Notes under the pieces: model-generated
Database searches by the model: none
The model's input: the letters and a program-made list of their open reading frames with translations, nothing else
Told to the model about the DNA's origin: nothing
Position numbers and translations under genes: made by a program
Assembly (NCBI GenBank): GCA_902782145.1
Contig: CACZLZ010000016.1
Span: 25,116 to 89,115 of the forward strand
Length of the DNA: 64,000 nucleotides
Source of the DNA: an uncultured Aeromonadales bacterium
GTDB lineage: Bacteria > Pseudomonadota > Gammaproteobacteria > Enterobacterales > Succinivibrionaceae
Direction of reading: 5' to 3'
Part shown: positions 37,447-50,747 of the stretch, one piece after another
Layout: each line of letters opens with the position of its first letter
Position numbering within the stretch: position 1 is the first letter of the stretch

Positions 37447-38658
37447 TCACTTGCCGTTCTTGTCTTCGCCCAGGCTCTTGAAGAAGTCGGCGATGGCGGC
37501 GCCCCAGCTCTTCTTCTGGGGATTGTGGACAGCACTCTTGCTGCTGCCGTCACCCTCCAGGGAGGCTTCCAGTTCCCGGAACAGTTTCTTCTGCTGCTCA
37601 TTCAGGTTCACTGGGGTCTCAACCCGCACCTGGACAAACAGATCACCCCGGGCATCGCTGCCGATGGCCCGGACACCTTTGCCCCGGAGACGGAACTGCT
37701 TCCCGGACTGGGTGCCCTCGGGGATCTTAAGCTCACCCCGGGTGCCGTCAATGGTGGGGATCTCCACCTTGCCGCCCAGGGCAGCCATGGTGAAACTGAT
37801 GGGCATCTCACAGAACAGGTCATAGTCCCGGCGCTGGAAGATCTTGTGGGGCTTGATGAACACCTGCACCATAAGATCACCGGGGGTTCCGCCCCTGACA
37901 CCGGCCTCGCCCTCGCCCCGCAGGCGGATCCTCTGCCCCTCGTCAATACCGGCAGGGATCTTGACGGTGAGAGTACGGCGCTTGCGCACCCGACCGTCGC
38001 CGCCGCAGGTCTTGCAGGGGTTCTTCACAGTCCGGCCGGTGCCCATGCAATGGGGACATTCCATGATCTGGGAAATGAATCCCCGGGACTGCTGGATCTG
38101 ACCGGTGCCGTGACAGTACTGGCAGGCATCGTACTTGGCATCAGGGGTTTCACTGCCGGAGCCGCCGCACTTCTGGCAGGAGGAATAACTCTCAAACTCA
38201 ATGTCCTTGGAGCACCCGGATACTGCCTCCTCCAGTGAGATCTCAATCCGGTAATTCAGATCACTGCCCCGGATGTCTGTAGATCGCCTCCGGCCACCAC
38301 TGCGGCGGCCGAACATCTCGCCAAAGACACCGCCAAACAGATCCCCAAAATCCTCAAAACCGGCCCCACCGGCGCCACCGGCACCGCCGAAGCCGCCAAA
38401 GCCTCCGAAGCCGCCCTGGCCGAAACCAGTCTGGGGATCATTAGGATCAATGCCCTGATCAAACAGCTGCTTCTTCTGGGGATCAGAAAGAACCTCGTAG
38501 GCTTCCTTAACCTTCTTGAACTCCTCCTCAGCCTTCTTAGGATCATCAGGATTGCGATCCGGATGGTACTTCATGGCCAAATGGCGGTAGGCCTTCTTGA
38601 TATCGGCCTCGGAGGCATCCTTGGAGACCCCCAGAATCTTGTAGTAATCCTTCTTCAT
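37447..38658 (-). CDS. dnaJ: chaperone protein DnaJ
   Basis: 403 residues, slightly longer than E. coli (376). J-domain 1-70 with HPD in [11 protein letters not shown], then a G/F-rich region ([15 protein letters not shown]), then the cysteine-rich zinc domain with four CxxCxGxG repeats ([32 protein letters not shown]), then the two beta-barrel client domains. The tail ends with [18 protein letters not shown]. It stimulates DnaK ATPase and delivers clients. Downstream of dnaK by 163 bases; it could serve either dnaK or the fusion protein nearby. Confidence 0.97.
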
Positions 38659-38821: not shown

Positions 38822-40744
<1,923 letters not shown>

Positions 40745-40809: not shown

Positions 40810-40835
40810 ATATGGACGCACTCCAAGATTTCAAA
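40810..40835 (-). promoter_or_regulatory. predicted sigma-32 promoter of dnaK
   Basis: Minus strand TTTGAAA (-35, 40829-40835), 13-base spacer, CCATAT (-10, 40810-40815). It resembles the heat-shock consensus CTTGAAA / CCCCATNT but is weaker than the grpE site. It lies 66 bases before the dnaK ATG. Confidence 0.6.
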
Positions 40836-41244: not shown

Positions 41245-43617
41245 TCAGCCAGCGGGTCTCCGGGAGACCACCACCATGGCCGGGCGCAGCAGACGGCCCT
41301 TCCTAACATAGCCCTTCTGCAACACCCGGATCACCGTGTCCGCCGGCAGATCCCCGGACTCCTCAGTCTGCACCGCATTTTGGGTTGCGGGATCAAAGTG
41401 CTCTCCCTTAGGATCCAGCATTTCCACCCCGTGGCGGCTCAGGATCCGCTGCAGGGAACGCAGGATGAGCTCCACACCCTTGGTATTACCCTCATTGGCG
41501 GCACCGCCAGCTCCCAGGGAATCCAGGGCGCGCTCCAGATCATCCGCCACCCCCAGGAGATCCTCAGTGAATTCCTCCACGGTCTCATCCCGGGCGCGTG
41601 CGACATCCACAGGCGCCTGCTTCCTGAGGTTCTCCAGTTCCTCCCGGCATCTGGCAAGCTCATCCCCCAGCCGGCGGATCTCATTCTGTGGCTCCTCTTC
41701 AGAACCGGTCTCCCGGCTCTCCTCCAGGGACTCCCGTACTGAAGCATCCTGATCCCTGTCCTCTTCAGAAGAGACTCCCCCGTCTTCATTGTTCTCTGGG
41801 TTCTCCGGCTCATCTGGTCCGGTTTCCGGGCGATCCAGAACCTTCTCCAAAGCATCTGCCGCCTGGGCAAGTTCCCCAGTCCGGCTGCGGATAAGATCCG
41901 GATCAGTTCCCTGGCAGGCCGCCTCCAGCGCATCCGCCGCCGCAGCAGCCTGCTCCGCCTCCCGGAGTGCGCTCCCCCGGGGGATCTCCGCCAGCCGGGA
42001 GCGGATCTTTGTAAGTTCCTCCCGGGCACGGACTGCCAGGAGCATCGCCTCCTCGGCTCTCCGGGCCTGATGCTCCCAGGCTCTGGACTCCCGGCACATA
42101 GCCTCAGACTCCTCAGGAGAAAGTTCATGCGATTTGTGGACAGCAGTCCTGAGCTTCAGGCCGGAAATCTGCTCCCTGGCATGGACATGTAGCCGGGAGT
42201 ACGGATCAACCTCCATGGTAATCTCAACCCGGGGCAGTCCCTGGCGGGCAGGCGGGATACCCTCCAAACTGTAGGTTGCCAATGACTCCATGGGAGAGCC
42301 GCTGCCATCCCCCTGGATCACATGCACCGGAAGGCTCTGCTGTCCATCATAGAATGTGGTGATGATGAAGGATTTTCTGGCCGGCAGCGGGGTATTCCGC
42401 GGCAGCACCGGCATCACTCCCCTGCCGGACACAATACCCAGATCATGGAACAGGACATCCACCAGAGCGGGGCCCTGAACACGTCCGTCCAGGATCCCTG
42501 CCTGTATAGCGGCCCCCCGCACTGCAGTCGTCAGCGGATCATGGCTGGGATCTGCTGAACTGTCCGGAAACATCCCGCCCACGATTGGCATCAGGGTCTG
42601 ACCACCGGTTAAGATCACCTGATCCACCTCATGCCATTCAAGCCCTGCGTCATTCAGAGCCTGGATCATCAGTTCCTCAGTGCGCCGCACCACGCCAGCG
42701 GCTTCTGCCTCCAGTTCCTTCCGGCTCAGAGGAAGAGTCAGATCCTCGGAAAAGCCCAGACTGCGGGGCAGGATCACCTGGGCAGAGGAAGCGGAGGAAA
42801 GCTGCTTTTTGGCCTCCTCCACCGCCCGCAGAAAACTTGTCCTGAGATGCGGGCTGCCCAGAATATCAGTGCCACAACTCCTCAGGATCTGCGCTGCCAG
42901 GCGCCGGGATACAGCAAGATCAATGTCAACCCCGCCCAACTCCTGGGATCCGCTGACGGCAAGGATCCTGACCGCCTCCCGTCCACCCTGGAGTTCCCGG
43001 CGGAACAGTGCAAAATCAAAGTTGCCGGCACCCAGGCTGTACACCGCCCCGATACGAGAATCCTGCCGGTAGTTCCCGGAAGCCACCGCATCAATGGCAG
43101 CGGCCGATGCGGAGCTGATCAGGGTGATCTTCAGATCCGCAATGCGCCCGGCGTCCAGGATGCAGCTGCGCTGGGCACCTGTGAAACTGCCGGGCACAGC
43201 CACCACGGCCCGGGTGACATCCTCCCCCAAAGCCTGCCGGGCTGTGTGACTGAGTTTCCGGAGGATCTCTCCCAAGATCCGGGCTGGGGGAAGAGGCAGG
43301 GAACCGGCAAGCACCCGGACATCCCCCTTCTCCCCCGGAACCAGGTGCCAGGGGCGTGCGGATGACAGTTGACGGATCCTGGGCTCCCCGAAAGAACGGC
43401 CCGCCAGGGACAGCATCCCACGGAAGGAGCTCTCGGGATCTGCAGTCTCCCGGATGGCCGCAGCCCCACCTACCAGGATCCCGCTGCCGGTGATGGACAC
43501 CGCCGATGGCATGCGCTCCTCGCCCCCCTGCTCAGAAAGCACCCGGATCTCTCCAGGAAGTGCCACGGCCACGGAGGAGAAGGAAGTGCCCAGATCCATG
43601 CCAACAGTCACGCCCAT
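41245..43617 (-). CDS. DnaK-like protein fused to a C-terminal GrpE domain
   Basis: 790 residues in one uninterrupted frame; AGGAGGA lies about nine bases before the ATG. Order: Hsp70 nucleotide-binding domain (1-383; VGMDLGTSFSSVAV, VILTGGQTLMPIV), linker (384-397), SBD-beta (398-505; GIPPARQGLPRVEITMEV), helical lid (505-598), acidic linker (599-645), GrpE (about 645-790; coiled coil, LLGVADDLERAL, FDPATQNAVQ, VLQKGYVRKGRLLRPAMVVV). The GrpE part matches the separate grpE at 44102 closely. ATPase residues are degraded: Lys70 region reads MLSLAGR, phosphate-2 is YSLGAGNFD (D194 to S, T199 to N) and NEPTAAA is SSASAAA. So it may be a holdase, regulator or self-exchanging chaperone. It lies between dnaK and grpE. 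I know of no characterised protein with this layout. Confidence 0.93.
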   Translation of the reverse strand: MGVTVGMDLGTSFSSVAVALPGEIRVLSEQGGEERMPSAVSITGSGILVGGAAAIRETADPESSFRGMLSLAGRSFGEPRIRQLSSARPWHLVPGEKGDVRVLAGSLPLPPARILGEILRKLSHTARQALGEDVTRAVVAVPGSFTGAQRSCILDAGRIADLKITLISSASAAAIDAVASGNYRQDSRIGAVYSLGAGNFDFALFRRELQGGREAVRILAVSGSQELGGVDIDLAVSRRLAAQILRSCGTDILGSPHLRTSFLRAVEEAKKQLSSASSAQVILPRSLGFSEDLTLPLSRKELEAEAAGVVRRTEELMIQALNDAGLEWHEVDQVILTGGQTLMPIVGGMFPDSSADPSHDPLTTAVRGAAIQAGILDGRVQGPALVDVLFHDLGIVSGRGVMPVLPRNTPLPARKSFIITTFYDGQQSLPVHVIQGDGSGSPMESLATYSLEGIPPARQGLPRVEITMEVDPYSRLHVHAREQISGLKLRTAVHKSHELSPEESEAMCRESRAWEHQARRAEEAMLLAVRAREELTKIRSRLAEIPRGSALREAEQAAAAADALEAACQGTDPDLIRSRTGELAQAADALEKVLDRPETGPDEPENPENNEDGGVSSEEDRDQDASVRESLEESRETGSEEEPQNEIRRLGDELARCREELENLRKQAPVDVARARDETVEEFTEDLLGVADDLERALDSLGAGGAANEGNTKGVELILRSLQRILSRHGVEMLDPKGEHFDPATQNAVQTEESGDLPADTVIRVLQKGYVRKGRLLRPAMVVVSRRPAG

Positions 43618-43752
43618 GCCCCATCTCCTCCTGTCGTTAAGTTGTCACCGCCTGCCAGAAATACCCGGACACCGTGCCTACCTGACACCGTACCACCGGA
43701 CGGAAACAAGTGTAGCACCAGCGCTTCTGCTGTTCCCCGAAAGGGATCACAC

Positions 43753-44023: not shown

Positions 44024-44057
44024 AAAAAAAATCTCCGGAAAAGCCCTTCCCGGAGAT
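44024..44057 (-). terminator. intrinsic terminator of grpE
   Basis: Minus strand stem ATCTCCGG / CCGGAGAT (44050-44057 and 44031-44038), 11-base loop, then seven T. It lies 45 bases after the grpE stop and should separate grpE from the fusion gene. Confidence 0.9.
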
Positions 44058-44101
44058 CTCTTGTCAGACTAAGGCACCCCTGGCGCCTCCTTTACCCGGC
44101 A

Positions 44102-44722
44102 TCACGCCTGGGTGTCAACCTTGGCCTTGACCTTGGAGACCACCACCATGGCCGGACGGATATTGCGCCCGTTCAAGTTATAGCCCTTCTGCATCACGTC
44201 AATGACGGTGTTGGCCTCATACTCATCGGATTCCAGCATCTGGATGGCATGCTGGGTGGCCGGATCAAAGGGCTGTCCCCTGGGATCCAGTTGCTCCACA
44301 CCGTGCTTTTCCAGCACCTTCATCAGGGACTTCAGGGTCAGTTCAACGCCCTTGTCAATGTTGGCAAAGTCCGCATTGGCATGATCTATGGATCCATAGG
44401 CCCGCTCCAAATTGTCGGCAACGTCCAGGAGATCCTTGGCAAAGGCCGTCAAGGCGAACTGGCGGTTTTTGTCCAGTTCCTTCTCTGTGCGCTTCCGCAG
44501 GTTGTCCATCTCAGCATAGGCTCTGAGCTCCGCATCCTTGGCCTTCTTCAGCTCAAGGGCCAGGGCCTCCAGTTTACGGGACATGCTGTCAGGAGCCTCG
44601 CCGCCGGCACTCTCCTGCTCTGCATCCCCCTGCGGCTCTGCGGATCCCTGGGGAGTCTCGTCAGCCACAAACTCACTGTCGATCTCTTTTTCTTCGTTAT
44701 TGCTCTGCTCTTCGTCGGCCAT
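44102..44722 (-). CDS. grpE: nucleotide exchange factor GrpE
   Basis: 206 residues from ATG 44722 (MADEEQSNNEEKEID); the ATG three codons earlier abuts its own ribosome site GAGGA. Acidic disordered N-terminus, long dimer-forming helix (MSRKLEALALELKKAKDAE...LRKRTEKELDK), four-helix region (DLLDVADNLERAYGSID) and beta-wing (VMQKGYNLNGRNIRPAMVVV). It releases ADP from DnaK. Divergent from nadK as in E. coli. A perfect-looking sigma-32 promoter precedes it. Clearly paralogous to the C-terminus of the fusion protein at 41245. Confidence 0.97.
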   Translation of the reverse strand: MADEEQSNNEEKEIDSEFVADETPQGSAEPQGDAEQESAGGEAPDSMSRKLEALALELKKAKDAELRAYAEMDNLRKRTEKELDKNRQFALTAFAKDLLDVADNLERAYGSIDHANADFANIDKGVELTLKSLMKVLEKHGVEQLDPRGQPFDPATQHAIQMLESDEYEANTVIDVMQKGYNLNGRNIRPAMVVVSKVKAKVDTQA

Positions 44723-44802
44723 TGCTTGCATTCCTCAAAAATAAAATTCCCGGCAGTCCTCCCGGCAACTGGAATTGGGAGGTCACTACCCACCTGTGTC
44801 AG

Positions 44803-44831
44803 ATATGGGGACGGCAGGTGTTTTTTTCAAG
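44803..44831 (-). promoter_or_regulatory. sigma-32 heat-shock promoter of grpE
   Basis: Minus strand CTTGAAA (-35, 44825-44831), 14-base spacer, CCCCATAT (-10, 44803-44810), essentially the sigma-32 consensus. It lies 81 bases before the grpE ATG. Confidence 0.88.
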
Positions 44832-48488: not shown

Positions 48489-50747
48489 ATGCCCCACCCC
48501 AGTTCCGCCGCCATCATCCTCACCGCACTGCTCCTGATCTCCTGCGGCGAGCAGAAGCCGCCTCCCAGGCAGGAGATCCAGTTCCGCACCGAATACCTGG
48601 ATGCGGTCACCGGCCGGAAGAGCCTGATCCTGGACGGCTACAGCTCCCTGGTGGCCAAACCCGTCTACGGCAGCGTCCGGAAGGAGAAGGGCAAGTTCAT
48701 CTACACCATGCCGGATCTCCCGGATCTGATCACCGGTCCCGGAGTCCTGGCACCCCGTTACGACGCCTTCACGGCGGACTCAGTTCCCCGGAACGGGATC
48801 TACCGCCGCACGGTGTTCAAGATCTACTTCAGTTCAGATCCCCTCTCCCTGCATCAGTGGTACATCAGCAACCAGGGTCTCAACACCTATGATCCCCAGG
48901 GGTTCAACCAGGACGGCTCCCTGCAGTATCCCCGCCAGGGCTGGCGGGCAGACGGCAGGCCCGGCCTGGATCTGAATGTGGTTCCCGCCTGGAAGTCCGG
49001 AGCCACGGGCAAGGGCGTGGGGGTTATTGTCTATGACAGCGGGGTAGATCCCGGCAACCCGGATCTGGCCGGCGGCCTGCTGCTGGATCGGGCGGTGAAC
49101 TTCATCACCGGCACCTACAGTCTGAAGTCCGAGGACTACGAGCGGAACCCCCACGGCACCAAGGTTGCAGGGATCATCGGCGCCCGGGCCCACAACAGCA
49201 CCGGGATCCGGGGGATCGCCTACGAGAGCACCATCATTCCCTGGCGCTACAACAACGTCTGGGAGGACTACCTGCTCTTCGACTTCCCCCCGGAGGCCCG
49301 GGTGTTCCAGAACAGCGTGGGCAATGATCCCGGCAAGCTCATCAACACCGAGCCCTTCAACCCCTCCCTGCTGGATGCGGATCTGGTGTTCTTCCTGTCC
49401 AAGGGGAACTACTACACCGTCAACTACTATGAGGAGGAGCCCGCCACCGGCAACAGGGTGCTCCTGTATGCGGGGTGCGTGTTCTACCAGGTGAACTGCG
49501 CCGAAACCCCCAAGCTCTCCACCATGCCGGTGTACTACCCGGTGCTGGCGGGGGTCTCGGGAGTCAACGCCCTGGGAGTCCACATGGACTACGGCCAGAT
49601 CCGCAAGTACTACATCGGCATCAACGCCAGTACGGGCTCCGACGTGATGTTCGTGGGCTTCAACTCCACCTCCAACTCCGGGATCAGCAAAGGCTCCCGG
49701 GGGATCTTCACCACCAGTCCCCCCATGGGCCGGGACAGCCAGGCACTGGAGCTCATGGAGCCCTTCCGGGAGAGCCCGGAGTACAGCGCCCACCATGACT
49801 TCTACTCCTCCGGAGATCCGGACAACCCCCGATCAGCCTACACCGGCAACTTCTGCGGCACCTCCGCCGCCGCCCCCATGCTCTCGGCGGTGGCGGCCCT
49901 GGTGCGGTCAGTCAACCCGGATCTGACCTGGGCCGACACCTATGACATACTGATCCGGTCCTCCTCCATAGATCGTCTGGCCCGGCGTCCCGAGATCCGG
50001 GACGACATGAACCTGTGGTTCCAGGACGGTGACCGTCTCACCGTGGAGCGTGCCCCCGAAGCCAACGCCGCGGGCTTTGTCCACAGCAACACCTACGGCT
50101 TCGGCCTGGTGGATGCCGCCCGGGCCGTGGAGCTGGCCCGCAACTACCATCACTCGGATCTCCAGACCGTGAACCGGGAGTTCCTGCGTCCGGCCCGGAT
50201 CCCCATGAAGGGGCTGTCCTTTGCCGCAGCAGCCACCGTGGAAGCCGCCACCAGCCAGGTGTCCGGATCCACCGATGACAGCCGGAAGGTCTTTGCGGCG
50301 GTGCTGGAGCTGCCGCCCTCCTTCCTGGCCCGGTTTGAGAGCAAGGAAAATGCCTGCGCCAAGTCCCGGCGGGTGATCAGCGATGAGGACACCTTCTACA
50401 GGAACATCTACTTCAGCCGGGACTGCTGGATCTCGGATCTGACCTTCACCCAACTGGAGATCGAATCCCCCTCCGGGAAGATCAGCGTCATCAAGCCCAT
50501 GGGATCCATGTACCTGATGATGAAGGATCTGGAGCACCCCCACCGCATCGAGTCCAAGGCCTTTTACGGCGAGGACATGCAGGGGGAGTGGAAGATCAGG
50601 GCCATCACCTCCCGGGGCGAGCGCTGGAAGGTGAGGTACAATGATCCGGAGCAGCGCATAACACTGAACCGCAGCGCGGAGCGGAGGGATCTGGTCACCG
50701 ATGTGACCCTTGAGCTTTATCCCCTCACCGCAGGAGAGACACCATGA
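48489..50747 (+). CDS. S8 subtilisin/kexin-like protease, lipoprotein
   Basis: 752 residues. Short signal peptide with a lipobox (LLISC, Cys19), so probably anchored in the envelope. Catalytic triad: D183 in IVYDSGVDPGNPDL, H222 in NPHGTKVAGIIGA, S459 in CGTSAAAPMLSAVAAL. A long insert between His and Ser carries extra cysteines. A C-terminal P/homoB-like domain (about 640-752; WISDLTFTQLEIESPSGK, MQGEWKIRAIT) is as in proprotein convertases. Its stop overlaps the next start by four bases (ATGA). Substrate unknown. The protease assignment is firm. Confidence 0.9.
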   Translation: MPHPSSAAIILTALLLISCGEQKPPPRQEIQFRTEYLDAVTGRKSLILDGYSSLVAKPVYGSVRKEKGKFIYTMPDLPDLITGPGVLAPRYDAFTADSVPRNGIYRRTVFKIYFSSDPLSLHQWYISNQGLNTYDPQGFNQDGSLQYPRQGWRADGRPGLDLNVVPAWKSGATGKGVGVIVYDSGVDPGNPDLAGGLLLDRAVNFITGTYSLKSEDYERNPHGTKVAGIIGARAHNSTGIRGIAYESTIIPWRYNNVWEDYLLFDFPPEARVFQNSVGNDPGKLINTEPFNPSLLDADLVFFLSKGNYYTVNYYEEEPATGNRVLLYAGCVFYQVNCAETPKLSTMPVYYPVLAGVSGVNALGVHMDYGQIRKYYIGINASTGSDVMFVGFNSTSNSGISKGSRGIFTTSPPMGRDSQALELMEPFRESPEYSAHHDFYSSGDPDNPRSAYTGNFCGTSAAAPMLSAVAALVRSVNPDLTWADTYDILIRSSSIDRLARRPEIRDDMNLWFQDGDRLTVERAPEANAAGFVHSNTYGFGLVDAARAVELARNYHHSDLQTVNREFLRPARIPMKGLSFAAAATVEAATSQVSGSTDDSRKVFAAVLELPPSFLARFESKENACAKSRRVISDEDTFYRNIYFSRDCWISDLTFTQLEIESPSGKISVIKPMGSMYLMMKDLEHPHRIESKAFYGEDMQGEWKIRAITSRGERWKVRYNDPEQRITLNRSAERRDLVTDVTLELYPLTAGETP

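Follow-up and report, generated by a model that had tools for sequence, protein, structure and literature searches.

The window analyzed here, a 64,000-nucleotide (nt) stretch of contig CACZLZ010000016.1 from an uncultured Aeromonadales bacterium of the family Succinivibrionaceae (GenBank assembly GCA_902782145.1), encodes a DnaK-related, Hsp70-like protein that is joined in a single reading frame to a GrpE domain. The Hsp70 half of this fusion has lost key residues of its ATP site and is probably ATPase-dead, whereas the GrpE half keeps most conserved GrpE positions. We propose, at somewhat below an even chance, that the protein is an Hsp110-like exchange factor acting in trans: the housekeeping DnaK would be recharged by the GrpE half, and the probably dead Hsp70 half would hold the client or add bulk at it. 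Fusions of this kind are also present in three relatives and are likely to have arisen more than once within the family.

The fusion gene and its predicted protein

The fusion gene occupies positions 41245 to 43617 of the minus strand, starts with ATG and comprises 790 codons and a stop codon; the frame across the same bases on the plus strand contains six internal stops. Pfam assigned residues 5 to 590 of the protein to HSP70 (309 bits, E value of 7 × 10−92) and residues 640 to 785 to GrpE (136.8 bits against a cut-off of 25.8, E value of 7 × 10−40), while the normal DnaK and GrpE of the window scored 854 and 173 bits, respectively. The two halves are only distantly related to these neighbors, with 33% identity between the Hsp70 half and DnaK and 42% between the GrpE half and GrpE.

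The AlphaFold2 model of the protein (mean predicted local distance difference test [pLDDT] score of 84.7, predicted template modeling score of 0.67) contains both an Hsp70 fold and a GrpE fold, whose placement relative to each other is unreliable. From the N terminus, the model comprises a nucleotide-binding domain (NBD; residues 1 to 380, minus-strand positions 42478 to 43617), a substrate-binding domain β-like part (SBD-beta; residues 383 to 500, 42118 to 42471), the SBD-alpha or lid helices (residues 501 to 595, 41833 to 42117), a disordered acidic linker (about residues 598 to 642, 41692 to 41826, with pLDDT below 50 over residues 598 to 639) and the GrpE domain (residues 643 to 790, 41248 to 41691). 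The last consists of a long stalk helix (residues 643 to 701), a second helix (residues 706 to 728) and a beta domain, and the confidence of the stalk and helix pair is good.

An initial annotation, made from the sequence alone, had described a full-length Hsp70-like chain linked in one 790-codon frame through an acidic linker to a complete GrpE domain and flanked by ordinary copies of grpE and dnaK-dnaJ. The minus-strand open reading frame (ORF), the Pfam pair, the model and the gene order bear out the frame, the linker, the complete GrpE domain and the position; "full-length" holds for the domain layout of the Hsp70 half, with NBD, SBD-beta and lid all in the model, but not for its catalytic residues. 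We also looked for separate genes at this place and for a missing Hsp70 or GrpE profile match, which that annotation had named as grounds for giving it up, and found neither.

Distribution of the fusion

As the initial annotation had suggested, the whole protein was searched against 5.8 billion database proteins, of which only the 7,993 candidates sharing most words with the query were scored. This search yielded a cluster (P0001) of 10 sequences on 3 contigs whose 793-amino-acid (aa) protein is 97% identical to the window fusion and has the same Pfam pair; among the best 120 of 136 matches listed, the others were at most 35% identical and none had a GrpE domain. Queries with the GrpE part (partner length 0.55 to 1.75 times that of the query) found only P0001 among 2,597 candidates, and the GrpE part of the relative G007 found only a second cluster, P0123, among 770. 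P0123 comprises 9 sequences on 7 contigs and shares 742 of 747 residues with the G007 protein. All these searches require shared 5-residue words, and distant fusions can escape them, since the query with the GrpE part of the window fusion did not recover P0123.

Within a sample of 56 genomes of the family, of which one (G036) gave no match at all, search and reading of the loci revealed fusions in 4 genomes and 3 of 14 genera, always between grpE and dnaK. Besides the window genome, these are G007, whose fusion has 764 codons from a GTG or 747 from an ATG, and two genomes of a third genus, G053 (666 aa) and G054 (669 aa). Pfam found HSP70 and GrpE in all three relatives, although the HSP70 match was short and weak in G053 (46 bits) and G054 (41 bits). 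The model of the G053 fusion is likewise weak (mean pLDDT of 69.6) but still matches Hsp70 (best E value of 1.9 × 10−19). In the congener G050 the locus is split over contigs, so that its fusion status cannot be judged.

Outside the family, we screened 295 genomes of the order (294 with GrpE) and 299 of the phylum (297 with GrpE), two sets that overlap. Among the matches listed, no frame joining GrpE and Hsp70 was seen, including in the 21 genomes with several GrpE matches or long frames that were followed up (G067, G098 and 19 from the phylum set). In the phylum follow-up, 30 of 39 matches were examined as loci, the frames of the remaining 9 were at most 431 aa long, and a 1,248-aa frame in G470 was read over 667 residues. 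A pattern search of contigs, whose scope possibly excluded the window genome itself or those closest to it, gave 60 stretches; the sole relative among them, an alphaproteobacterial locus (L037), was rejected as it carries ordinary separate grpE and dnaK genes.

The openly licensed PubMed Central (PMC) literature, searched with some strict queries, yielded no published DnaK-GrpE fusion, in agreement with the initial annotation, whose author was aware of no characterized protein of this kind. The words "fused" and "fusion" do not occur in the main text of a 2025 review on GrpE-like exchange factors. The separate parts are all known; what is new is their combination, an origin that was likely repeated and a decay that affects one half.

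The space between grpE and dnaK was also inspected in two genomes that have no fusion. In G052 (L038:4229-4882) and G049 (L039:2805-3500) it contains an AIM24-family gene, and in G052 a chagasin-family inhibitor gene as well. The gap content was considered as a relic of the fusion and rejected because the gene belongs to the AIM24 family. Given these residents, the gap seems to accept extra genes.

Decay of the Hsp70 half

We compared the Hsp70 half with 97 DnaKs, taking as conserved the positions that are the same in at least 90% of them. The window fusion retains 92 of 197 conserved NBD positions and 10 of 19 positions of what we take to be the ATP site. The residues K70, E171, D194 and T199 are replaced by L, A, S and N, respectively, and direct alignment to the DnaK chain 5nro, which itself has A at position 199, agrees. 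According to a 2025 study, the side chains of K70 and T11 contact the γ-phosphate, D8, E171 and D194 hold the Mg waters, and T199A strongly reduces the DnaK ATPase, while changes of E171 did not abolish allostery (PMC12406271). The interdomain linker is lost as well, DVLLLDVTPL having become GPALVDVLFH. At the J-domain site, R167, N170 and T173 align with L, S and A, respectively. N170 and T173 are described as acting together with D393 (PMC12406271). The fusion scored 316.4 and 301.6 bits on the NCBIfam DnaK equivalog models (cut-offs of 648 and 822.55), both of which the window DnaK passes. The Hsp70 half would probably go through no ATP cycle.

The relatives differ in the extent of decay. 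The G007 fusion retains 14 of 19 ATP-site positions, among them K70, E171 and D194, and has G for T199 and N for D201; about 60 Ala-rich residues join its SBD-beta to GrpE. Only 3 of 19 positions remain in each of the G053 and G054 fusions.

GrpE contacts DnaK in regions 28 to 33, 51 to 61 and 276 to 302 (PMC10825016). Of the 23 conserved contact positions, the NBD of the window fusion retains 7, that of G053 also 7 and that of G054 only 5, so that in three of the four fusions the protein's own NBD would be a poor partner for GrpE; G007 retains 22.

Retention of the GrpE half

The fused GrpE domains were compared with 38 stand-alone GrpEs, among which 30 positions are the same in at least 85% of the sequences. 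The window fusion keeps 24 of these positions, G007 26, and G053 and G054 22 each; among stand-alone GrpEs, that of the window genome has 30, that of G007 also 30 and that of G053 23. At the position of Escherichia coli Gly122 the window fusion has Gly, and the G122D exchange is reported to inactivate E. coli GrpE (PMC10825016). On the NCBIfam GrpE equivalog models the best scores were 126.9 (cut-off of 231) and 120.7 (cut-off of 152) bits, and no GrpE model reached its cut-off among the matches listed (best 25 of 34 families).

Substitution patterns also distinguish the two halves. Between the window fusion and P0001 there are 22 substitutions and one insertion of three residues. All of these lie at or before residue 631 and none in the GrpE part, an arrangement with a chance of approximately 0.009. 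Ratios of nonsynonymous to synonymous substitution rates (dN/dS) between fusions were calculated for the pair G053 and G054, the comparison of the G007 fusion with the G007 genes being saturated or nearly so. The fused GrpE domain gave a ratio of 0.043 (0.067 when taken to the end), the fused Hsp70-like part 0.321 (bootstrap range of 0.24 to 0.42) and the whole fusion 0.25, compared with 0.066 for dnaK and, for the stand-alone GrpE, 0.106 for the domain and 0.30 for the whole gene. These values indicate strict conservation of the GrpE half in the genus of G053 and G054, and a looser but real constraint on the Hsp70 half.

The stand-alone GrpEs of G007 (367 aa, L042:1285-2388), G053 (371 aa, L043:1643-2758) and G054 (325 aa, L044:5631-6608) are long, as are those of several other genomes of the G007 genus. 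Their extensions evolve fast between G053 and G054, with dN/dS of 0.38 for the N-terminal and 0.56 for the C-terminal one.

Proposed function of the fusion

In the trans mechanism that we propose, the GrpE half would dimerize through its stalk, either with itself or with the stand-alone GrpE, and would dock on the intact DnaK encoded next door rather than on the fusion's own NBD, which has lost most of the conserved GrpE-contact positions. The SBD cleft would still bind hydrophobic clients, free of ATP control: positions 401, 426, 436 and 438, which we take from the DnaK structure to line the cleft, remain hydrophobic (I, I, L and V). The disordered N-terminal tail of GrpE helps to displace the client at the DnaK cleft (PMC12915176; PMC10803776), and in the fusion a complete Hsp70-like chain and the acidic linker take the place of this tail. 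Together with the poor own NBD and the intact DnaK nearby, this replacement leads us to favor a trans-acting exchange factor with a holding arm. Action in trans on the housekeeping DnaK had been raised as a possibility in the initial annotation and is a reasonable interpretation.

Several observations weigh against this proposal. The G007 NBD, with 22 of 23 contact positions and K70, E171 and D194 in place, could allow binding in cis, and the G007 fusion seems to have no full lid. T199 has changed to S in G053 and G054, a mild change on a weak Hsp70 alignment. In the window fusion, cleft positions 403, 404 and 429 are altered to S, G and F, so that client binding stays conjectural; 6 of the 30 conserved GrpE positions differ, and conserved positions are in any case no proof of exchange activity. 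The fusion occurs in a small minority of family genomes (4 of 56), and it is absent from the congeners G049, G051 and G052, in which the locus is contiguous. Finally, expression of the fusion is unproved, because no promoter of its own was recognized in the window and a terminator-like hairpin parts it from the grpE promoter.

The closest competitor, which we consider unlikely, is a damper or decoy that binds the housekeeping DnaK, the stand-alone GrpE in a mixed dimer, or both, and thereby slows or buffers the DnaK cycle. The stalk and helix pair needed to dimerize are predicted with good confidence, chloroplast GrpE homologues are reported to form homo- and hetero-oligomers (PMC6987454), and excess Sse1 is reported to inhibit the yeast system (PMC12305717). 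However, the GrpE residues that have been kept, including the Gly122 at which Asp blocks exchange, exceed the needs of a decoy that merely binds.

Improbable, in our view, is a device working in cis, in which the tethered GrpE would dock on its own Hsp70 half and keep it nucleotide-free as a constant client trap. The tether would raise the local concentration, and the nearly complete contact surface of the G007 NBD and its K70, E171 and D194 suit such a device; yet few contact positions are left in the window, G053 and G054 fusions, and a GrpE dimer has been seen with one DnaK in a 1:2 complex (PMC10803776). The view of the initial annotation that a DnaK is here tied to "its own" exchange factor at fixed stoichiometry is not supported, since the loss of four catalytic residues and of 16 of the 23 conserved contact positions makes cis exchange unlikely in the window fusion.

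Still less probable is a by-product, meaning a gene that arose by duplication and fusion and is now decaying without a selected function. Its patchy occurrence, the lost active site of the Hsp70 half and the upstream terminator-like hairpin would fit. Such a gene would hardly explain a frame of 790 codons that has stayed uninterrupted at an identity of 33% to the window DnaK, intact copies in clusters of 10 (P0001) and 9 (P0123) sequences, presence in three genera, or the dN/dS of 0.25 for the whole fusion and 0.04 for its GrpE domain in G053 and G054. A misjoining of grpE and dnaK copies in the 93-contig draft genome is hardly credible and was rejected, because both halves diverge strongly from the normal genes, P0001 has the same layout and three relatives carry fusions in place.

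Probable origin of the fusions and comparison with known systems

The Hsp70 tree comprised 36 rows, the G053 and G054 fusions being omitted as too diverged, and placed the G007 fusion as sister to the DnaK of G007 (support of 83/62) inside the clade of its genus (99/99). In the GrpE tree, built from 34 stand-alone GrpEs of the family, 4 of the outgroup and the 4 fused domains, the fused GrpE of G007 likewise fell inside the GrpE clade of its own genus (99/97). Approximately unbiased (AU) tests on GrpE rejected a single clade of all four fused domains (P = 0.0004) and a clade of the window and G007 domains (P = 0.0007). Because the G007 fusion groups with its own genus and the one-clade GrpE topology is rejected, at least two origins are likely, though not certain.

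The case for repeated origin is tempered by further tests. A clade of the window, G053 and G054 GrpE domains was not rejected (P = 0.27), nor was a clade of G007, G053 and G054 (P = 0.09) or the grouping of the window domain with the GrpEs of its own genus (P = 0.375), and the Hsp70 tree alone leaves a clade of the window and G007 fusions unrejected (P = 0.099). The fusions sit on long branches, and the tested clades were chosen after the tree had been viewed.

A plausible route would begin when the neighboring grpE and dnaK were duplicated in tandem, giving grpE-dnaK-grpE-dnaK. If the inner dnaK then became joined to the second grpE, the result would be grpE-[dnaK-grpE]-dnaK, which matches the layout seen exactly, and the Hsp70 active site would decay after the joining.

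The fusion shares features with several known systems and differs from each. Like DnaK, it has an Hsp70 domain above the Pfam cut-off and an Hsp70 fold; unlike DnaK, it has lost K70, E171, D194, T199 and the interdomain linker, stays below the NCBIfam cut-offs and carries an added GrpE. With GrpE it shares the stalk, the helix pair, the beta domain, 24 of 30 conserved positions and Gly122, the difference being the Hsp70-like chain and acidic linker in place of the disordered tail. HscA and other stand-alone Hsp70 paralogues accompany the housekeeping Hsp70 as additional copies and, to our knowledge, have no GrpE in the chain; the fusion scores 278.8 bits on the HscA profile, against a cut-off of 708.55. 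A possible functional analogy is with the eukaryotic Hsp110 and Grp170. The window fusion is an Hsp70-related chain that carries an exchange-factor domain of predicted activity. We know of no GrpE domain in Hsp110 (Sse1). Exchange by Hsp110 proceeds via NBD-NBD contact (PMC12987570), and such exchange by a nucleotide-binding NBD of its own is not expected of the fusion, where the ATP residues are lost and GrpE is present. Hsp110 and the fusion would thus be convergent solutions.

A broader and more tentative idea, to which we give roughly one chance in three, is that counterparts of Hsp110 have evolved repeatedly in bacteria through tandem duplication and joining of grpE and dnaK, whereby the Hsp70 half would lose its ATPase and become a passive client arm and the GrpE half would deliver this arm to working DnaK and recharge that DnaK. 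The genera might then represent stages: a young one in G007 (14 of 19 ATP-site positions), an intermediate one in the window (10 of 19, four key residues gone and all domains kept) and an eroded Hsp70 half in G053 and G054 (3 of 19), whose GrpE half is selected most strictly. The transition from Hsp70 to exchange factor, as in Hsp110, has been described as unsolved (PMC12305717). Since a single family holds several Hsp70-exchange factor fusions at differing degrees of Hsp70 decay beside an intact system, these steps would be directly testable. If the idea is true, a bacterial Hsp70 pseudoenzyme would have been retained as part of a co-chaperone.

Gene neighborhood and expression signals

The gene order on the minus strand of the window is grpE, fusion, dnaK, dnaJ. 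The stand-alone grpE encodes 209 aa (44102 to 44731; ORF and Pfam), the housekeeping dnaK 640 aa (38822 to 40744; ORF, Pfam and NCBIfam) and dnaJ 403 aa (37447 to 38658; ORF and Pfam), all of them normal. A Shine-Dalgarno-like AGGAGG (43627 to 43632) lies 9 nt 5′ of the fusion ATG. Upstream of grpE, a pattern match based on what we take to be the sigma-32 consensus identified a heat-shock promoter-like sequence (TTGAAA-N15-CCCAT, 44805 to 44830); the pattern has three matches in the window against 0.25 expected, and the other two lie elsewhere. A second sigma-32-like sequence, read by eye, precedes dnaK (TTGAAA...CCATAT, 40810 to 40834). Between grpE and the fusion lies the terminator-like hairpin with a T-run (44030 to 44058; folding z score of −1.84, equaled by 7 of 200 shuffles), which is missing from the listing of the window terminator scan. 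That scan was at chance level, with 1 sigma-70 promoter found against 1.5 expected and 5 terminators against 5.4.

Other Hsp70- and GrpE-related genes

Further Hsp70-like genes were noted during the survey. G053 has an additional Hsp70 (L057:1718-3988) with a zinc-ribbon-like stretch (22.6 bits, below the Pfam cut-off of 25) and, on that strand at a distance of approximately 5.6 kb, a third GrpE homologue of 147 aa (68 bits, L057:9628-10071); the two possibly form a second Hsp70 system. Contigs C17 (L003:97-2622) and C19 (L004:73-2625) of the window genome encode proteins of 841 and 850 aa that match HSP70 over approximately the first 375 residues only and have no assignment beyond, apart from an additional weak HSP70 match in C17. 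In seven phylum genomes (L095 to L101), divergent GrpE-like genes (64 to 72 bits) directly precede Hsp70 genes, and in six of the seven the alignment of the Hsp70 to the window DnaK is broken between about residues 75 and 104, in the NBD lobe region; these appear to be co-diverged Hsp70-GrpE pairs. Elsewhere in the window, positions 48489 to 50747 hold a subtilase-family (Peptidase_S8) gene that follows bamE and whose start looks lipoprotein-like by eye.
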